Source: Caldicellulosiruptor diazotrophicus
Lineage (GTDB): Bacteria > Bacillota > Thermoanaerobacteria > Caldicellulosiruptorales > Caldicellulosiruptoraceae
Direction: 5' to 3'
DNA length: 64,000 nt
Assembly: GCF_017347585.1 (NCBI RefSeq)
Contig: NZ_AP024480.1
Span: forward strand, 300,001-364,000
Made by a program: the position numbers and the translations under genes. Position 1 is the stretch's first letter, and the number at the start of each line of letters is the position of its first letter. This document shows positions 54,427-60,266 of the stretch, piece after piece. The notes under the pieces were generated by a model. The model did not search any database, was not told the origin of the DNA, and saw only the letters and a program-made list of their open reading frames with translations.

Positions 54427-54533
54427 AATCGATATTTAATTTACTGAAATTTTTTATCCTGCTATTTATTATATACCCAAATTAATTTCGAAACACAAAA
54501 AATTTACCTTATAAAAAGAGGCAACATTTATTA

Positions 54534-54562
54534 TTGACATATGCCAAAAACACGAGTAAAAT
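54534..54562 (+). promoter_or_regulatory. Mrp promoter with shared CATATGCCAA site
   Basis: TTGACA (54534-54539), 17 bases and TAAAAT (54557-54562). The spacer and -35 carry TTGACATATGCCAAAAACA, identical to the same place in the promoter at 55507. The CATATGCCAA core matches half of the palindrome TTGGCATATGCCAA. Repression by occlusion of the -35 would fit. Confidence 0.62.
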
Positions 54563-54594
54563 AAAGAGAAAAACGAATAAGGGAGAGAGAAAAA

Positions 54595-55383
54595 TTGAGA
54601 CAAAATACAATGCACTCAATTCCCAAAAATGAATTTACAGATGTAAAGAAGATGTATGCTATTGTCAGCGGCAAGGGCGGAGTGGGAAAAAGTTTGGTTA
54701 CATCTTTACTTGCCGTGGGTCTGAGAAGAGAAGGTTATGAAGTTGGAATCCTTGATGCGGATATTACCGGACCATCTATCCCAAAGATGTTTGGTGTAAG
54801 TGGTGCTAAGATTGAGTCAGACTCAAAGGCAATCTATCCTGTGAGAACTCACAATGATATAAAAATTATGTCAATGAATTTACTTTTGAATAAAGAAGAT
54901 GCTCCAGTGATTTGGAGAGGACCACTCATTGCAAAAACAATAGAGCAGTTTTGGACAGAGGTTGGCTGGGGTGTTTTAGATTATCTTTTTATTGACATGC
55001 CCCCTGGGACAGGTGATGTTGCACTCACAGTTTTTCAATCTTTGCCGATTGACGGAATCATTATTGTAACATCGCCTCAAGACCTTGTTTCTTTGATAGT
55101 CAAAAAGGCTTATAACATGGCAAAGCAAATGGATATATCAATTATAGGTATTATTGAAAATATGAGTTATGTAATATGTCCTCATTGTGGAAAAGAATTT
55201 GATATTTTTGGAAAAAGTAAATTAGAAGATGTGGCTGAGCAGTTGGATTTGAGGATTTTAGGGCGAATTCCAATAGATACAGAATTGACAAAACTTTGTG
55301 ATGAGGGCGGAATTGAAAAAGCAAGGAATTTGTATTTGGATTCCTGTATAGAGGTTTTAAAAAGGGACGTTGTAGAAGGATAA
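54595..55383 (+). CDS. mrp: Mrp/NBP35-type Fe-S carrier ATPase
   Basis: A 262-residue P-loop ATPase that builds or delivers Fe-S clusters. The deviant Walker A is SGKGGVGKS (with the signature Lys), followed by LDADITGPSIPKMFG, IDMPPGTGDVAL, TSPQDLVSLIVKKA and the cluster-binding ENMSYVICPHCGKEFDIFG (CxxC). A TTG start follows GGGAGAGA. An in-frame ATG 15 bases downstream is possible. It heads a cluster with DUF5320, Fur-like, NifX-like and DUF134 genes, a combination often seen near Mrp. Confidence 0.94.
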   Translation: MRQNTMHSIPKNEFTDVKKMYAIVSGKGGVGKSLVTSLLAVGLRREGYEVGILDADITGPSIPKMFGVSGAKIESDSKAIYPVRTHNDIKIMSMNLLLNKEDAPVIWRGPLIAKTIEQFWTEVGWGVLDYLFIDMPPGTGDVALTVFQSLPIDGIIIVTSPQDLVSLIVKKAYNMAKQMDISIIGIIENMSYVICPHCGKEFDIFGKSKLEDVAEQLDLRILGRIPIDTELTKLCDEGGIEKARNLYLDSCIEVLKRDVVEG

Positions 55384-55506
55384 GAAAATTTTTGACAACT
55401 TTTGTATTATAGAACTGCAAAATTTCTGGGACAGGACAATAATTTCTTTTTTGGTAGAATTATTACCCTTGTGAAAAGCAAGGGTAAAAATTTTTCAAAA
55501 AAGTTA

Positions 55507-55555
55507 TTGACATATGCCAAAAACAGAGTATAATTATAATTAGCATATGCCAATA
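55507..55555 (+). promoter_or_regulatory. DUF5320 promoter with two copies of the shared site
   Basis: TTGACA (55507-55512), 16 bases and TATAAT (55529-55534). One copy of CATATGCCAA overlaps the -35/spacer (55511-55520). A second, TTAGCATATGCCAATA, lies just after the -10 (55540-55555). Two sites framing the promoter suggest tight control by one regulator. Confidence 0.65.
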
Positions 55556-55589
55556 ACAAAAATAAAAATGGTTTTGGAGGTGAAAAACG

Positions 55590-55817
55590 ATGCCTTGGGG
55601 TTTTGGACCAGGATTTTATGGAAGAGGCTGTGCAAGAGGTTTTGGTGGCGGTTTTGGTTTTGGCAGAGGCCTTGGAATTTGCAAATGGGCTCTCTTAGGT
55701 AGCACTTCTTACGCGCCTTATGTCAAGGATGCTTTGGAGTTTGAAAAACAAGTTTTAGAGCAAAGACTGAAGCTAATTGATAAGCTTCTAAAAGATAATG
55801 AACAAAAGCAAGAGTAA
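55590..55817 (+). CDS. DUF5320-like Gly-rich small protein
   Basis: A 75-residue protein. A Gly/Phe/Arg-rich N-terminus (PWGFGPGFYGRGCARGFGGGFGFGRGLG with two Cys in total) is followed by a coiled-coil helix (YVKDALEFEKQVLEQRLKLIDKLLKDNEQ). This is the layout of DUF5320 proteins found next to Mrp and NifX-like genes. Function is unknown. TTGGAGGTG lies 9 bases before the ATG. It has its own promoter with two copies of the shared site. Confidence 0.8.
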   Translation: MPWGFGPGFYGRGCARGFGGGFGFGRGLGICKWALLGSTSYAPYVKDALEFEKQVLEQRLKLIDKLLKDNEQKQE

Positions 55818-55945
55818 AGGAACTTAAAGAAACTTCATAGAAGGGGGCACAGCAGAATATTTTTATATGTTATGTGCCCCCAATTTGTTAAACCGAAATT
55901 ATCTTTAATAAGATTAAGCCTGCTACTCAAATTTGGTGGGTTGTT

Positions 55946-56386
55946 ATGAAGAGTATGCTTAAAAACAAAAAAAGAAGAATAAAGAATAGAGAAATAAATA
56001 ATCTGATTCTTCAATTTCTCAGCAGTAACTCAGGTGTTGCTAAGAAAAAGGATTTGATTGAAAGCTTAGGAAAACATGTTAGCTTGGTTACTATTTACAG
56101 AGGAATAAATAGACTATTAAGAAAAGGGGAAATTATCTCTTTTCAGGTAGGAAAAGACCATTATTTAGCTTTGTTTAAAAAAGATTCAAAAAAGATTCTA
56201 CTTTTTGCCTTTTTAATTTGCGAGAAGTGCAGAAATGTCTATCGGTTAGAATTGGATAAGAAAGATATTGAAAATATAGCTCAGGCAATTGAGGCTTTGT
56301 ATAATTTCAAAAGTGAGTTTGTGATACTTGAATTTCGAGGAATATGTAACCAATTTTCAGTATATACTAAAACAGCAGTCAGTTAA
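55946..56386 (+). CDS. Fur-family regulator with reduced metal sites
   Basis: A 146-residue Fur-like protein. A winged helix with the Fur recognition region VSLVTIYRGINRLLRKGEI is followed by a short dimerisation domain. The first zinc CxxC is present (LICEKCRNVY). The second is reduced to a single Cys (FRGICNQFSVY), and the usual His-rich run before CEKC is replaced by LLFAFL. Metal sensing, if any, must differ from Fur, Zur or PerR. It lies between DUF5320 and NifX-like genes and is the obvious candidate to bind the shared operator sites, but this is inference. Confidence 0.78.
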   Translation: MKSMLKNKKRRIKNREINNLILQFLSSNSGVAKKKDLIESLGKHVSLVTIYRGINRLLRKGEIISFQVGKDHYLALFKKDSKKILLFAFLICEKCRNVYRLELDKKDIENIAQAIEALYNFKSEFVILEFRGICNQFSVYTKTAVS

Positions 56387-56413
56387 ATCTTAAACCAAGT
56401 GGAGGGAAAAAAG

Positions 56414-56806
56414 ATGAAAATAGCAGTAATGATGGCAGGCAATCAGATAAGTCCACATTTTGGGGGAAGTGAAAAGGTTTGTATATATACAGTCGAAAAC
56501 GACAATATTGTAGCTAAGGAGTATTTTAATATGCCAGAGCACAGGGCTGGGCTTTTTGCAAAGTTTATAAAACAAAAAGGAGCAGATGTTGTAATTGCAG
56601 GCTCAATTGGCGAGAGGGCAAGATATATATTCGATAGTCTTGGCATTAGGTATTTCATCGGTGTTTTAGGTTCTCCAGATGAAGCAGTTGAAAAGCTATT
56701 AAAAGGTCAGCTGAAGTCAAATGAAGCACTTGCAAATGAGATCCATAAGCATGAAGAGGGATTGCAACATCATTCGCATGGACATTCACACCATAATAAA
56801 ATCTAA
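56414..56806 (+). CDS. NifX/NifB-like (Fe-Mo cofactor biosynthesis) protein
   Basis: A 130-residue protein of the dinitrogenase iron-molybdenum cofactor family. The ribonuclease-H-like core (KIAVMMAGNQISPHFGGSEKVCIYTVENDNI...AGLFAKFIKQKGADVVIAGSIGERARYIF) is followed by a His-rich tail (HKHEEGLQHHSHGHSHH) with eight His, likely to bind metal. No nitrogenase genes are nearby; such proteins are common with Mrp in anaerobes and may carry metal clusters. The ATG at 56414 follows GGAGGG, so upstream codons are not used. Confidence 0.87.
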   Translation: MKIAVMMAGNQISPHFGGSEKVCIYTVENDNIVAKEYFNMPEHRAGLFAKFIKQKGADVVIAGSIGERARYIFDSLGIRYFIGVLGSPDEAVEKLLKGQLKSNEALANEIHKHEEGLQHHSHGHSHHNKI

Positions 56807-56919
56807 ATACTGGAAAGTATAAATTTGATTTTTTGAATATAGAGATTTGAGTAGCCTTGCTTTTTTGATGTGTGTTATAATCTAATTTAGAAAAACAATG
56901 TTGAAATAACCAGTATTGA

Positions 56920-56948
56920 GGGGCAGGGTTAAAATCCTGCCTTTTTGT
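56920..56948 (+). terminator. Terminator before DUF134 gene
   Basis: GGCAGG (56922-56927) pairs with CCTGCC (56936-56941), followed by TTTTTG. It sits between the NifX-like and DUF134 genes. It may end the first transcript or attenuate the second, since a TATAAT (56876-56881) lies upstream. Confidence 0.7.
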
Positions 56949-56980
56949 TCATAATAATTTGAGAAAAGGAGGCATTTGAC

Positions 56981-57403
56981 TTGCCACGGCCAATAAGATG
57001 CAGAAGAGTAGAATTTCTGCCAAGGTTCAATTACTTTTCACCAAAAGAAGGTTCAAATGATGAAGTGGTTTTAAAAGTAGAGGAGCTTGAAGCAATAAGA
57101 CTTAAAGACTTAGAAGGGCTTATGCAGGAAGAATGTGCACAAAAAATGCAGGTTTCTCGTCAGACATTTCAGCTTGTATTAGAAGAGGCAAGAAAAAAAA
57201 TTGCCGATGCGCTTGTCAACGGCAAAGCTATCAGAATTGAAGGTGGTAACTACGTTTTTGGGAATTGCAAGTATACTTGCTTAAATTGCGGAAAAGTTTT
57301 TGAATCAGAAAAGTGCGAATGCCCAGAATGCCACTCTTCTCATGTTATATGTCACAGAGGGAAAGGAAGAGGACACTGTTTCAGGCACCACGGAGGATGG
57401 TGA
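56981..57403 (+). CDS. DUF134 family DNA-binding-like protein with zinc ribbon
   Basis: A 140-residue protein. The DUF134 core (PRPIRCRRVEFLPRFNYFSP, EEAIRLKDLEGLMQEECAQKMQVSRQTFQLVLEEARKKIADALVNGKAIRIEGG) includes a sigma-region-4-like HTH. The C-terminal zinc-ribbon-like CLNCGKVF...CECPECHSSHVICHRG ends in a His-rich tail. A TTG start follows AAAGGAGG. DUF134 proteins accompany Mrp/NifX genes and are probably regulators. It is a second candidate to bind the shared sites. Confidence 0.86.
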   Translation: MPRPIRCRRVEFLPRFNYFSPKEGSNDEVVLKVEELEAIRLKDLEGLMQEECAQKMQVSRQTFQLVLEEARKKIADALVNGKAIRIEGGNYVFGNCKYTCLNCGKVFESEKCECPECHSSHVICHRGKGRGHCFRHHGGW

Positions 57404-57488
57404 TGATAAATAAAGAAAACTGATAGTATTTTTTAGTAGTTGGGTATAATAAAACCGAAAGACAAATTATTTTTTAAATAATTCCTAC

Positions 57489-57539
57489 TTGACATATAGA
57501 AATAGTAGAGTATAATAAAATTGTATTGGCAAATGCTAA
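57489..57539 (+). promoter_or_regulatory. copA promoter with inverted copy of the shared site
   Basis: TTGACA (57489-57494), 16 bases and TATAAT (57511-57516). Just downstream, TATTGGCAAATGCTAA (57524-57539) is the reverse complement of TTAGCATTTGCCAATA, which matches 15 of 16 bases of the site at 55540-55555. It overlaps the expected transcription start, typical for a repressor. Confidence 0.65.
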
Positions 57540-57556
57540 AAAAGAGGGTGTTACAT

Positions 57557-60016
57557 GTGGAGAAAAAAACTTTGAGTGTAACAGGTATGACATGTGCTTC
57601 GTGTGCAAGGGCAATTGAAAAAAGTGTTAGCAAAGTAGAAGGAGTAAGTAATGCGTCGGTTAACTTTGCCACTGAGAAACTTATTGTTGAGTTTGATGAG
57701 AGCAAAGCCAGCATTGAAAAGATCAAAGAAGCTGTTGAAAGAGCCGGCTATGGTGTTTTGGATGATGTTGAGGAAACTATTAGAGAAGTAACCATTCCTA
57801 TTTCAGGCATGACATGTGCTTCATGTGCAAGAGCAATCGAAAAATCAATTTCAAAGCTCAGTGGAATAAAAGAGGTAAGTGTTAACCTTGCAAGTGAAAA
57901 AGCAAGAGTTGTGTATGATTCATCTCAGGTAAGACTGTCTGAAATAAAAAATGCGATAATAAAAGCCGGATATACGCCACTTGAGATTGAGAAGACATCC
58001 TATGAAGATTCGCATCAAGAGCGAAAACAAAAGGAGATAAATAGTCTTTTTAGAAGGTTTTTCATTGCAAGTGTATTTGCAGTTCCACTTTTATTGATTG
58101 CTATGGCACATGTGGTGGGTCTTCCGCTACCAGAGATAATTCTGCCAGAAAAACATCCTTTGAATTTTGCAATTGTACAAGCGATATTGGAAATTCCAAT
58201 TGTCATTGCAGGGTATAAGTTCTACACGGTAGGCTTTAGCAGGCTTTTTAAGTTTCACCCAAACATGGACTCATTAATTGCAGTTGGGACAGGAGCTGCT
58301 TTTTTTTATGGTCTTTTTGCTATATACCAAATTGCAATGGGTAACTACCAGTATGTAAAGGAGATGTATTTTGAGACTGCAGGTGTAATTATAGCCCTTG
58401 TTCTCCTGGGCAAATACTTAGAAGCAGTTTCCAAAGGCAAAGCCTCAGAAGCCATAAAAAAATTAATGGGACTTGCACCAAAAACTGCAGTGGTTATTCA
58501 AGATGATAATGAAATAGTCATTCCAATAGAAGAGGTTGAAGTAGGCGATATACTCTTAGTAAAGCCCGGGGAAAAGATTCCCGTTGATGGAGAAGTAATT
58601 GAAGGTAGAAGCTTTGTGGATGAATCAATGCTGACAGGTGAAAGCATCCCCGTTGAAAAAACACCTGGAAGCAAGGTTATTGGAGCTACAATAAACAAAA
58701 ATGGTATGCTAAAGATAAAAGCTACAAAGGTCGGCAAGAATACAGTCATTGCGCAGATTATCAAGCTGGTTGAGGACGCTCAAAGCTCTAAAGCACCAAT
58801 CGCAAGGTTGGCAGATGTAATCTCAGGGTATTTTGTACCAGTTGTCATTCTCATTGCTGTAATCTCAGCCCTTGCGTGGTACTTTGCTGGCAGTTCATTT
58901 ATTTTCGCTTTGAGAATATTTATTACCGTCTTAGTTATCGCATGCCCGTGCGCTTTGGGCCTTGCAACACCAACTGCTATTATGGTTGGAACAGGAAAAG
59001 GCGCAGAACATGGAATTTTGATAAAAAGTGGTGACGCATTAGAAACCTTGCACAAGATTACAATGGTTGTTTTTGACAAAACAGGAACAATCACTGAAGG
59101 TAAGCCAAAAGTAACTGACATAATTCCGGCAAATGGGTGGGAAAGCGAAAGACTGTTGCAAATAGTAGCGTCAGCAGAAAGGCTCTCTGAACATCCTTTA
59201 GGTGAAGCCATAGTTGCTGCAGCAAAGGAAAAGAATCTGCAACTTTTTGAAGCAAGTCAGTTTGAAGCAATTTCAGGGCATGGAATAGAGGCAGTGGTAG
59301 ATGGACAAACAATTCTTGTTGGTAATGAAAAACTTATGAAAGATAAAGGGATTGAGATAGATTTCTTACTTGATGTAGAAAAGCTTTCACAGCAGGCAAA
59401 GACACCTATGTTTGTAGCGCAGAATGGAAAGTTTGCTGGCATAATAGCAGTATCAGATGTGGTAAAGCCAAATGCTAAGCGGGCAATTGAGCTTTTGCAT
59501 AAAATGGGTATTAGCGTTGCAATGATTACAGGGGATAATAGCAAAACAGCAAAAGCAATTGCAAAGCAGGTTGGAATAGATAGGGTTTTAGCGGAGGTCT
59601 TGCCACAGGACAAGGCAAATGAAGTGAAAAAACTTCAGGGAGAAGGTAAAAAGGTTGCGATGGTGGGCGATGGGATCAACGACGCACCAGCTTTAGCTCA
59701 AGCTGATGTTGGTATAGCAATTGGGTCTGGAACAGATGTTGCAGCAGAAGCTGCTGATGTGGTTCTTATGAAAAATGATATATTGGACGTTGTAAATGCA
59801 ATACTGCTTAGCAAAAAGACAATACAGAACATCAAACAGAATCTATTCTGGGCATTTTTCTACAACACATTGGGCATTCCGATTGCAGCAGGTGTTTTGC
59901 ACACATTTGGTGGTCCACTTTTGAATCCAATTATAGCGGCTTTTGCTATGGCGTTTTCTTCAGTCTCTGTGGTTTCAAACGCTCTGAGGCTAAAAAGATT
60001 TAAACCTGTAAATTAA
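57557..60016 (+). CDS. copA: Copper-translocating P1B-type ATPase
   Basis: An ~819-residue membrane pump. Two N-terminal heavy-metal domains with GMTCASCAR (both copies) precede about eight spans. The actuator motif is TGES, the metal site CPCALG, the phosphorylation Asp DKTGTITEG, the HP nucleotide motif SEHPLG and the hinge GDGINDAPA, all intact. CPC and the double CxxC suggest Cu(I) export. The GTG at 57557 follows AAAGAGGGTG; upstream frame residues are leader. CopZ follows after 40 bases. Confidence 0.96.
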
Positions 60017-60056: not shown

Positions 60057-60266
60057 ATGACAAAGAAAATTTATATTAAAGGCATGACTTGCGACCACTG
60101 CGTAAGAAGAGTGGAAAACAGCCTAAAAGCCATAGAAGGTGTAACCTCTGTCAAGGTTTATCTGCAGGGCAAAGTTGCAACTGTTGAGCTAAGTAAAGAT
60201 GTAAAAGATGAAGAGTTTGTTCGAGCAATTGATGATGCAGGGTATGAGGTTGTGAGAATTGAATAG
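60057..60266 (+). CDS. copZ: Copper chaperone CopZ
   Basis: A 69-residue heavy-metal-associated protein with the ferredoxin-like fold and metal motif GMTCDHCVRRVENSL (CxxC with an internal His, common in CopZ). The ATG at 60057 is chosen with AGAAAGGA upstream; an in-frame ATG at 60045 overlaps that site. It should deliver Cu(I) to CopA, whose gene lies directly upstream. A terminator follows. Confidence 0.94.
   Translation: MTKKIYIKGMTCDHCVRRVENSLKAIEGVTSVKVYLQGKVATVELSKDVKDEEFVRAIDDAGYEVVRIE

Follow-up and report, generated by a model that had tools for sequence, protein, structure and literature searches.

A shared operator at the promoters of an Mrp, DUF5320 and CopA gene island in Caldicellulosiruptor diazotrophicus and its probable recognition by a DUF134 protein

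We analysed a 64-kb stretch of the Caldicellulosiruptor diazotrophicus genome (contig NZ_AP024480.1, positions 300,001 to 364,000; below called the window, its first letter being position 1), in which a small island of genes for iron-sulfur (Fe-S) carriers and copper export has the same operator-like site at three of its promoters. The site is probably read by the DUF134 protein encoded in the island. The genes, with the family matches by which they were named, are as follows.

54595..55383, plus strand: Mrp/NBP35-type ATPase (PF10609, 1.6e-94)
55590..55817, plus strand: DUF5320-like small protein (PF17253, 9.8e-5; 23.9 bits, under the curated cut-off of 27)
55946..56386, plus strand: Fur-like protein (PF01475, 9e-6)
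56399..56806, plus strand: NifX-like protein (PF02579, 7.4e-18)
56981..57403, plus strand: DUF134 protein, the proposed regulator (PF02001, 3.4e-25)
57557..60016, plus strand: CopA-type copper-exporting P-type ATPase (TIGR01511, above its cut-off)
60057..60266, plus strand: CopZ-like HMA metallochaperone (PF00403, 1.2e-16; TIGR00003, above its cut-off)

The promoters and sites, with the conservation of the sites in the genus, are:

54531..54550, plus strand: mrp promoter, operator 1 (TTATTGACATATGCCAAAAA), whose core is conserved in 11 of 12 genomes
54534-54539 and 54557-54562, plus strand: mrp promoter boxes, -35 TTGACA (within operator 1) and -10-like TAAAAT
55504..55523, plus strand: operator 2 at the DUF5320 promoter, kept in 12 of 12 genomes
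55507-55512 and 55529-55534, plus strand: DUF5320 promoter boxes, -35 TTGACA (within operator 2) and -10 TATAAT
55537..55556, plus strand: operator 3, directly after the -10 box of the DUF5320 promoter, at an offset of 33 bp to operator 2 in all 12 genomes
57489..57516, plus strand: copA promoter, -35 TTGACA at 57489-57494 and -10 TATAAT at 57511-57516, read from the sequence and aligned in 11 loci
57523..57542, plus strand: operator 4, directly downstream of the copA -10 box, with the core TTGGCAAATGCTAA at 57526-57539 found in 10 of 11 copA promoters

The word TTGACATATGCCAAAAACA is present in identical form at 54534 and 55507, positions 55540-55555 read TTAGCATATGCCAATA, and the reverse complement of 57524-57539, TTAGCATTTGCCAATA, matches the latter at 15 of 16 positions. 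These positions and identities had been reported in an earlier, sequence-only reading of the window, and all of them hold on re-reading. The wider operator is approximately TTATTGACATATGNYMATAA, has the -35 box inside it and is usually followed by a second copy 33-39 bp downstream. In the island the mrp site lies on the -35 box, the DUF5320 sites lie on the -35 box and after the -10 box, and the copA site lies after the -10 box. The DUF5320 promoter thus fits the layout proposed here for a DUF134 regulon, in which a palindrome with a CATATG core lies over the -35 box and is repeated about 33-39 bp further downstream.

The site is rare outside the island. Within the window, 12 places lie within three mismatches of TTGGCATATGCCAA compared to 4.75 expected from shuffles (the largest shuffle gave 12), and every one of the three one-mismatch places is in the island. 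Exactly three positions in the whole genome are within one mismatch, again all in the island, while 17 are within two mismatches compared to three for a reversed control. Fifteen of these 17 were read as loci: four are the island promoter sites, nine lie inside long open reading frames (ORFs) and two lie outside them, and the copA site was counted within an ORF solely through an over-long TTG start. A 14-mer outside long ORFs, TTGACATGTGCCAA at L188:5001-5014 (G000:C1:1406149-1406162, reverse strand), stands by eye ahead of a small gene and is possibly a weak extra site; it appears among the matches listed for 8 of the 12 congeneric genomes, with its context read in G000 alone. Perfect copies of TTGGCATATGCCAA in G003 and G005 were dropped as regulon sites, as by eye they fall within one and the same protein-coding stretch.

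The island was read in all twelve genomes of the genus compared (own genome included). At the DUF5320 promoter both sites are present at an offset of 33 in every genome while the surrounding bases vary, and at the mrp promoter TTGACATATGCCA is kept in all but G006, which has TTGAACTATGCCAA. The GCAWATGC core of the copA promoter is degenerate in G009 only, and its variants (TTGGCAAATGCTAA, TTAGCAAATGCTAA, TTGGCATATGCTAA and ATGGCATATGCCAA) remain near-palindromic. Since the best copA match in G007 is merely 34% identical, copA was taken as lost there; the other sites are kept in that genome. The sequence-only claim of a shared operator at three promoters is thus borne out by the site matches, the genome-wide rarity and the conservation in the genus, and the motif is neither absent from orthologous promoters nor frequent at random, the two outcomes named in that reading as counting against it. 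It could be argued that the sites are chance repeats of a -35 box with CATATG after it, since the site includes TTGACA and copies with two mismatches are found within coding sequence. However, reversed controls at or near zero, conservation in 12/12 genomes and the recurrence of the same genes in distant families make this explanation virtually impossible in our view.

The regulon spans the phylum, which goes beyond what the sequence-only reading had envisaged. PF02001 occurs in 208 of the 299 sampled genomes of the phylum, in 202 of them above the family cut-off. A first set of 60 DUF134 genes from 58 families was collected with about 18 kb around each (less at contig ends), and word counts near and far from DUF134 were compared with no use of the window motif. 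The top 7-mers within 2 kb of the 60 genes were CATATGC (70 compared to 26 expected), ACATATG and TGACATA; this 7-mer list is the clean one, as among words of 8-10 letters some rare, near-backgroundless words outrank by z-score. Within the same distance TGACATATG was found 28 times compared to 4 expected, in 20 loci. Sites scoring at least 14 numbered 34 within 2 kb of DUF134 (in 20 of the 60 loci; 0.143 per kb), 10 at a distance of 2-4 kb (0.043 per kb) and 11 farther than 4 kb away (0.019 per kb), and against these 55 sites the reversed sequence gave none. The 150 bp before DUF134 itself had a site in 8 of the 60 loci (10 at a threshold of 13). A second set, the best 80 DUF134 matches from genomes with record titles, had a site in 57 of 80 loci compared to 1 of 80 in the reversed control, and in 54 of 76 compared to 1 of 76 when the four loci repeating the first set were left out. 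In three assemblies labelled Dehalococcoidia, outside Firmicutes, the site stands 34-48 bp before DUF134, although such labels can be wrong.

The association was also seen starting from the DNA. Scanning the 299 genomes with the strict pattern TTATTGACATATGNNCA gave 99 matches listed, in 78 genomes, and among the matches listed for the reversed pattern there were none. The strict motif was found in 71 of 208 DUF134-positive but only 7 of 91 DUF134-negative genomes (p 3e-7). Forty-three matches share a contig with a listed DUF134, and at least 38 of them lie within 10 kb of it. In motif loci L129-L188, which comprise 57 loci with matches not near a listed DUF134 and three loci of the genus, the window DUF134 as a query found DUF134 in 16 of 60 (in L184 only partially). 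A count of 34 of 57 such loci was discarded, because many of its queries were DUF134-NifX fusions and NifX matches are possible among its hits.

A second site after the first was found in 64% of 97 promoter contexts, in which some divergent regions are represented by both strands, compared to 5% of shuffles. Its offset was 33-39 in 53 of 62 cases; the consensus of the first site is partly set by the selection of sites, whereas the second site was not selected. It is conceivable that DUF134 binds these sites as an activator, for example by holding the polymerase at a weak promoter, and a fold resembling sigma region 4 could presumably touch the polymerase. With one site overlapping the -35 box and the next the start site, however, the layout is that of occlusion, and the DUF5320 promoter with its consensus TTGACA and TATAAT should need no activator, so we consider activation unlikely.

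A tally of the genes behind the sites covers 175 of 191 listed genes (at most the first three behind each site, with genes over 450 amino acids removed beforehand and genes called by a simple longest-ORF rule). Behind TTGACATATG sites in the motif loci (n=107) it gave NifX 25, DUF5320 22, ParA 18, FUR 10, Fer4 8 and DUF134 7, and behind sites in the DUF134 set (n=68) ParA 18, NifX 15, DUF5320 11, DUF134 10, Fer4 10 and FUR 2; the same gene families thus dominate in both.

These counts bear on the Fur-like protein encoded between DUF5320 and nifX, which the sequence-only reading had treated as a candidate binder on a par with DUF134. Ten of the twelve congeneric genomes have its gene in the island, and FUR-family genes stand behind the motif elsewhere (in 2/68 and 10/107 cases, as above). 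Yet whole-genome searches of G001 and G006 gave no Fur-like match, and both genomes keep the sites apart from the altered mrp site in G006; therefore the Fur-like protein is not what preserves the sites: a regulator should occur wherever its sites are kept, and DUF134 is encoded in all twelve genomes. In addition, the site has the form of an even palindrome with CATATG at its centre, presumably unlike the Fur box, and site words are enriched around DUF134, with a site directly before DUF134 in some loci. The evidence favours DUF134 over the Fur-like protein, and that the latter binds the sites seems highly unlikely. The shape of the site also does not resemble what we take Zur, CsoR or CopY boxes to look like. 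In one congener the Fur-like match (G010:C1:2084921-2085346) has one internal stop, and the gene may be broken.

The window DUF134 scores 88.9 bits against the curated PF02001 (DUF134 / UPF0251) cut-off of 27. Its predicted structure (predicted local distance difference test, pLDDT, 86.9) has a helix-turn-helix (HTH) resembling sigma region 4 and a C-terminal four-cysteine ribbon, and C100, C103, C114 and C117 are each at least 90% conserved in 46 DUF134 proteins. Most of the top structural matches are sigma region 4 domains, among them 2h27 and 6jhe, which were solved on -35 DNA, and the top Foldseek sigma rows have a root-mean-square deviation of 0.7-1.0 over 44-50 columns. By sequence the nearest solved domain is the DNA-binding domain of DeoR (7bhy; E 1e-5 over 38 positions). 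Low-probability HypA rows were also among the Foldseek matches, and one DUF134 has a weak HypA match.

In the recognition helix, the residue that follows SRxTFQ is R in most aligned DUF134 proteins and varies with a base of the operator. With R in the helix, 18 of 20 loci have C as the third base after CATATG in the nearest site, and with G, N, L, K or S another base stands there in 24 of 26 (the count excludes L193 and L205, which gave no helix, loci with no TTGACATATG nearby, and two repeats of L099 and L112). Taking the majority over all sites within 4 kb, C was found in 55 of 65 R rows and a base other than C in 12 of 13 others, the sole C row among the latter being L269, which was misread by the helix pattern. 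The ARTTV-type protein L207 has R together with base C, although its genome carries a second DUF134. The link between residue and base supports, and does not prove, that DUF134 binds the sites.

A further explanation is that another regulator, usually co-occurring with DUF134, binds the sites and that DUF134 is merely a member of the regulon. The seven DUF134-negative genomes with the strict motif, the finding of DUF134 in merely 16 of the 60 motif loci and the frequent position of DUF134 downstream of a site would all fit with this. Five of the seven genomes, however, are assemblies only 90-94% complete, three have a DUF134-positive congener (G192 for G146, G150/G220 for G241 and G330 for G138), and in G241 a partial DUF134 match lies beside the site. 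This match (L184:5134-5403, window residues 63-140) is near the motif in a genome counted as DUF134-negative. G097 (98% complete) and G168 (100%) are unexplained, but their sites have no usual NYC/NYA arm. The covariation of helix residue and operator base also speaks against another regulator, and no DNA-binding family besides DUF134 and FUR has many members among the 25 shown per tally, as the Sigma70_r4 and Xre-like entries proved to be the DUF134 HTH itself where single proteins were inspected. We give this explanation a small chance of being right.

It is likely that the sites are DUF134 operators and that DUF134 represses a regulon of Fe-S and metal-cluster carriers by covering the -35 box. 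Several observations weigh against this reading. The sequence-only reading had proposed scanning the promoters of mrp, DUF5320, DUF134 and copA, and within the genus no site was found in the 115 bp before DUF134 (0/12 genomes, compared to 11/12, 12/12 and 10/11 for mrp, DUF5320 and copA). Across the phylum, 40 of the 60 loci in the first set have no score-14 site within 2 kb of DUF134, 137 of the 208 DUF134-positive genomes have no strict motif, and FUR-family genes are nearly as frequent behind the sites as DUF134 (12/175 and 17/175). Foldseek E values were no better than 0.14 and Z reached 7.5 (below 8), and therefore the match to sigma factors covers one small common domain. As to the helix residue, most non-R rows belong to one clade gathered by likeness to L112, 10 of the 65 R rows have a majority base other than C, and the residue changes only three times on one tree and five times on another; a kinship-paired test of the link was not significant, and on the second tree some pairings ran the opposite way. 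What the data show directly is the sites with their conservation and tandem arrangement, the genes behind them and their association with DUF134. That DUF134 binds the sites is nevertheless supported, and repression, binding as a dimer and response to a metal or cluster signal are what we infer.

In the proposed mechanism, DUF134 would bind as a dimer to the palindrome of about 20 bp with its CATATG core, one copy lying over the -35 box and the second, about three helix turns downstream, over the transcription start, so that bound protein would exclude RNA polymerase from the promoter. The controlled genes would be carriers or assembly factors for Fe-S or Mo/Cu-type clusters (Mrp/ParA ATPases, NifX, DUF5320 and ferredoxin ATPases), often with DUF134 itself among them, and copA would have joined them in this genus, probably together with the copZ-like gene that follows it. 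A cluster, molybdenum, copper, zinc or iron are the candidate signals.

Among nine proteins scanned, including six DUF134 proteins picked for their long frames, five of these six are fusions of DUF134 with NifX (PF02579), three of the five coming from one genus (G055, G093 and G123):

L080:9070-9729, DUF134-NifX fusion
L101:9008-9784, DUF134-NifX fusion
L126:6931-7620, DUF134-NifX fusion
L175:4264-4950, DUF134-NifX fusion
L177:5067-5756, DUF134-NifX fusion

Because such fusions exist, NifX is suggested as the sensing partner of DUF134. A wider and more tentative view, possible rather than probable, is that DUF134 is a free-standing relative of the -35-reading domain of sigma factors turned repressor, which competes with sigma for an operator built on the -35 box. 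The carriers of Fe-S and Mo/Cu clusters that it would then govern would form an old regulon of anaerobes, seen in Firmicutes and also in assemblies with a Chloroflexota label. The sensor would be the cargo domain NifX, free in most species and fused to DUF134 in some, and copper export would have been wired in within this genus.

The sequence-only idea of Fe-S carriers and copper export in one regulon holds within the genus, where the copA site is kept, but outside it a copA relative was found in 1 of 120 DUF134 or motif loci. CsoR and CopY are known copper regulators of copA. CsoR-family genes are present in all twelve genomes of the genus and map far from the island, and we take CsoR and CopY operators to differ in shape from the island site. 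Over the copA -35 box lies a second inverted repeat (57481-57503), which reads ATTCCTA ... TAGGAAT in several congeners and is imperfect in the window. It may serve as operator for another regulator that responds to copper. As this repeat is conserved, copA may answer to two regulators.

Two further repeats lie between the genes. After DUF5320 there is an inverted repeat with a long loop at 55843-55881 (GGGGGCAC ... GTGCCCCC), and similar G/C-rich repeats follow DUF5320 in several congeners; it may be a terminator or an attenuator. Just upstream of DUF134, at 56922-56946, GGCAGG ... CCTGCC followed by TTTTT is present in 9 of 12 genomes of the genus and is likely an intrinsic terminator, and therefore DUF134 probably has its own promoter there.

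Compared to known systems, the island resembles MrpORP (NF041136) in two parts, as Mrp matches positions 3-232 and NifX positions 263-365, the first and last parts of that model; with 337.9 and 78.1 bits each is below the cut-off of 450, and there is no single MrpORP protein here. PMC6345978 treats MrpORP of Desulfovibrio in the context of Fe-S biogenesis and names the genes of the orange protein (ORP) complex, which form two divergent operons under a sigma-54-dependent promoter. In contrast, the island promoters look sigma-70-type and carry a CATATG operator, and Mrp and NifX are encoded by two genes. The possible likeness to region 4 of sigma factors of the extracytoplasmic function (ECF) type lies in the structural matches of DUF134 and in the -35 box within the operator, but no sigma region 2 was matched in the 140-residue protein, in which the four-cysteine ribbon follows instead. 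Similarly, the HTH is related by sequence to that of the DeoR deoxyribonucleoside regulator, but no sugar-binding domain was matched in DUF134.

DUF134 is a family of unknown function in Pfam and a hypothetical protein in NCBIfam. A literature search, with most subscription papers and regulon databases outside its reach, found no paper describing the operator or a regulatory role of DUF134. PMC5886521 lists the UPF0251 gene Tsac_2480 among genes mutated in adapted strains of Thermoanaerobacterium saccharolyticum that carry a rex deletion. If the proposed reading is true, it would give a role to a family present in 208 of the 299 sampled genomes of the phylum, together with a DNA code testable in culturable clostridia. 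It would also open a way to study how Fe-S and metal-cluster carriers are controlled in anaerobes, and in one genus it would tie copper export to that control.

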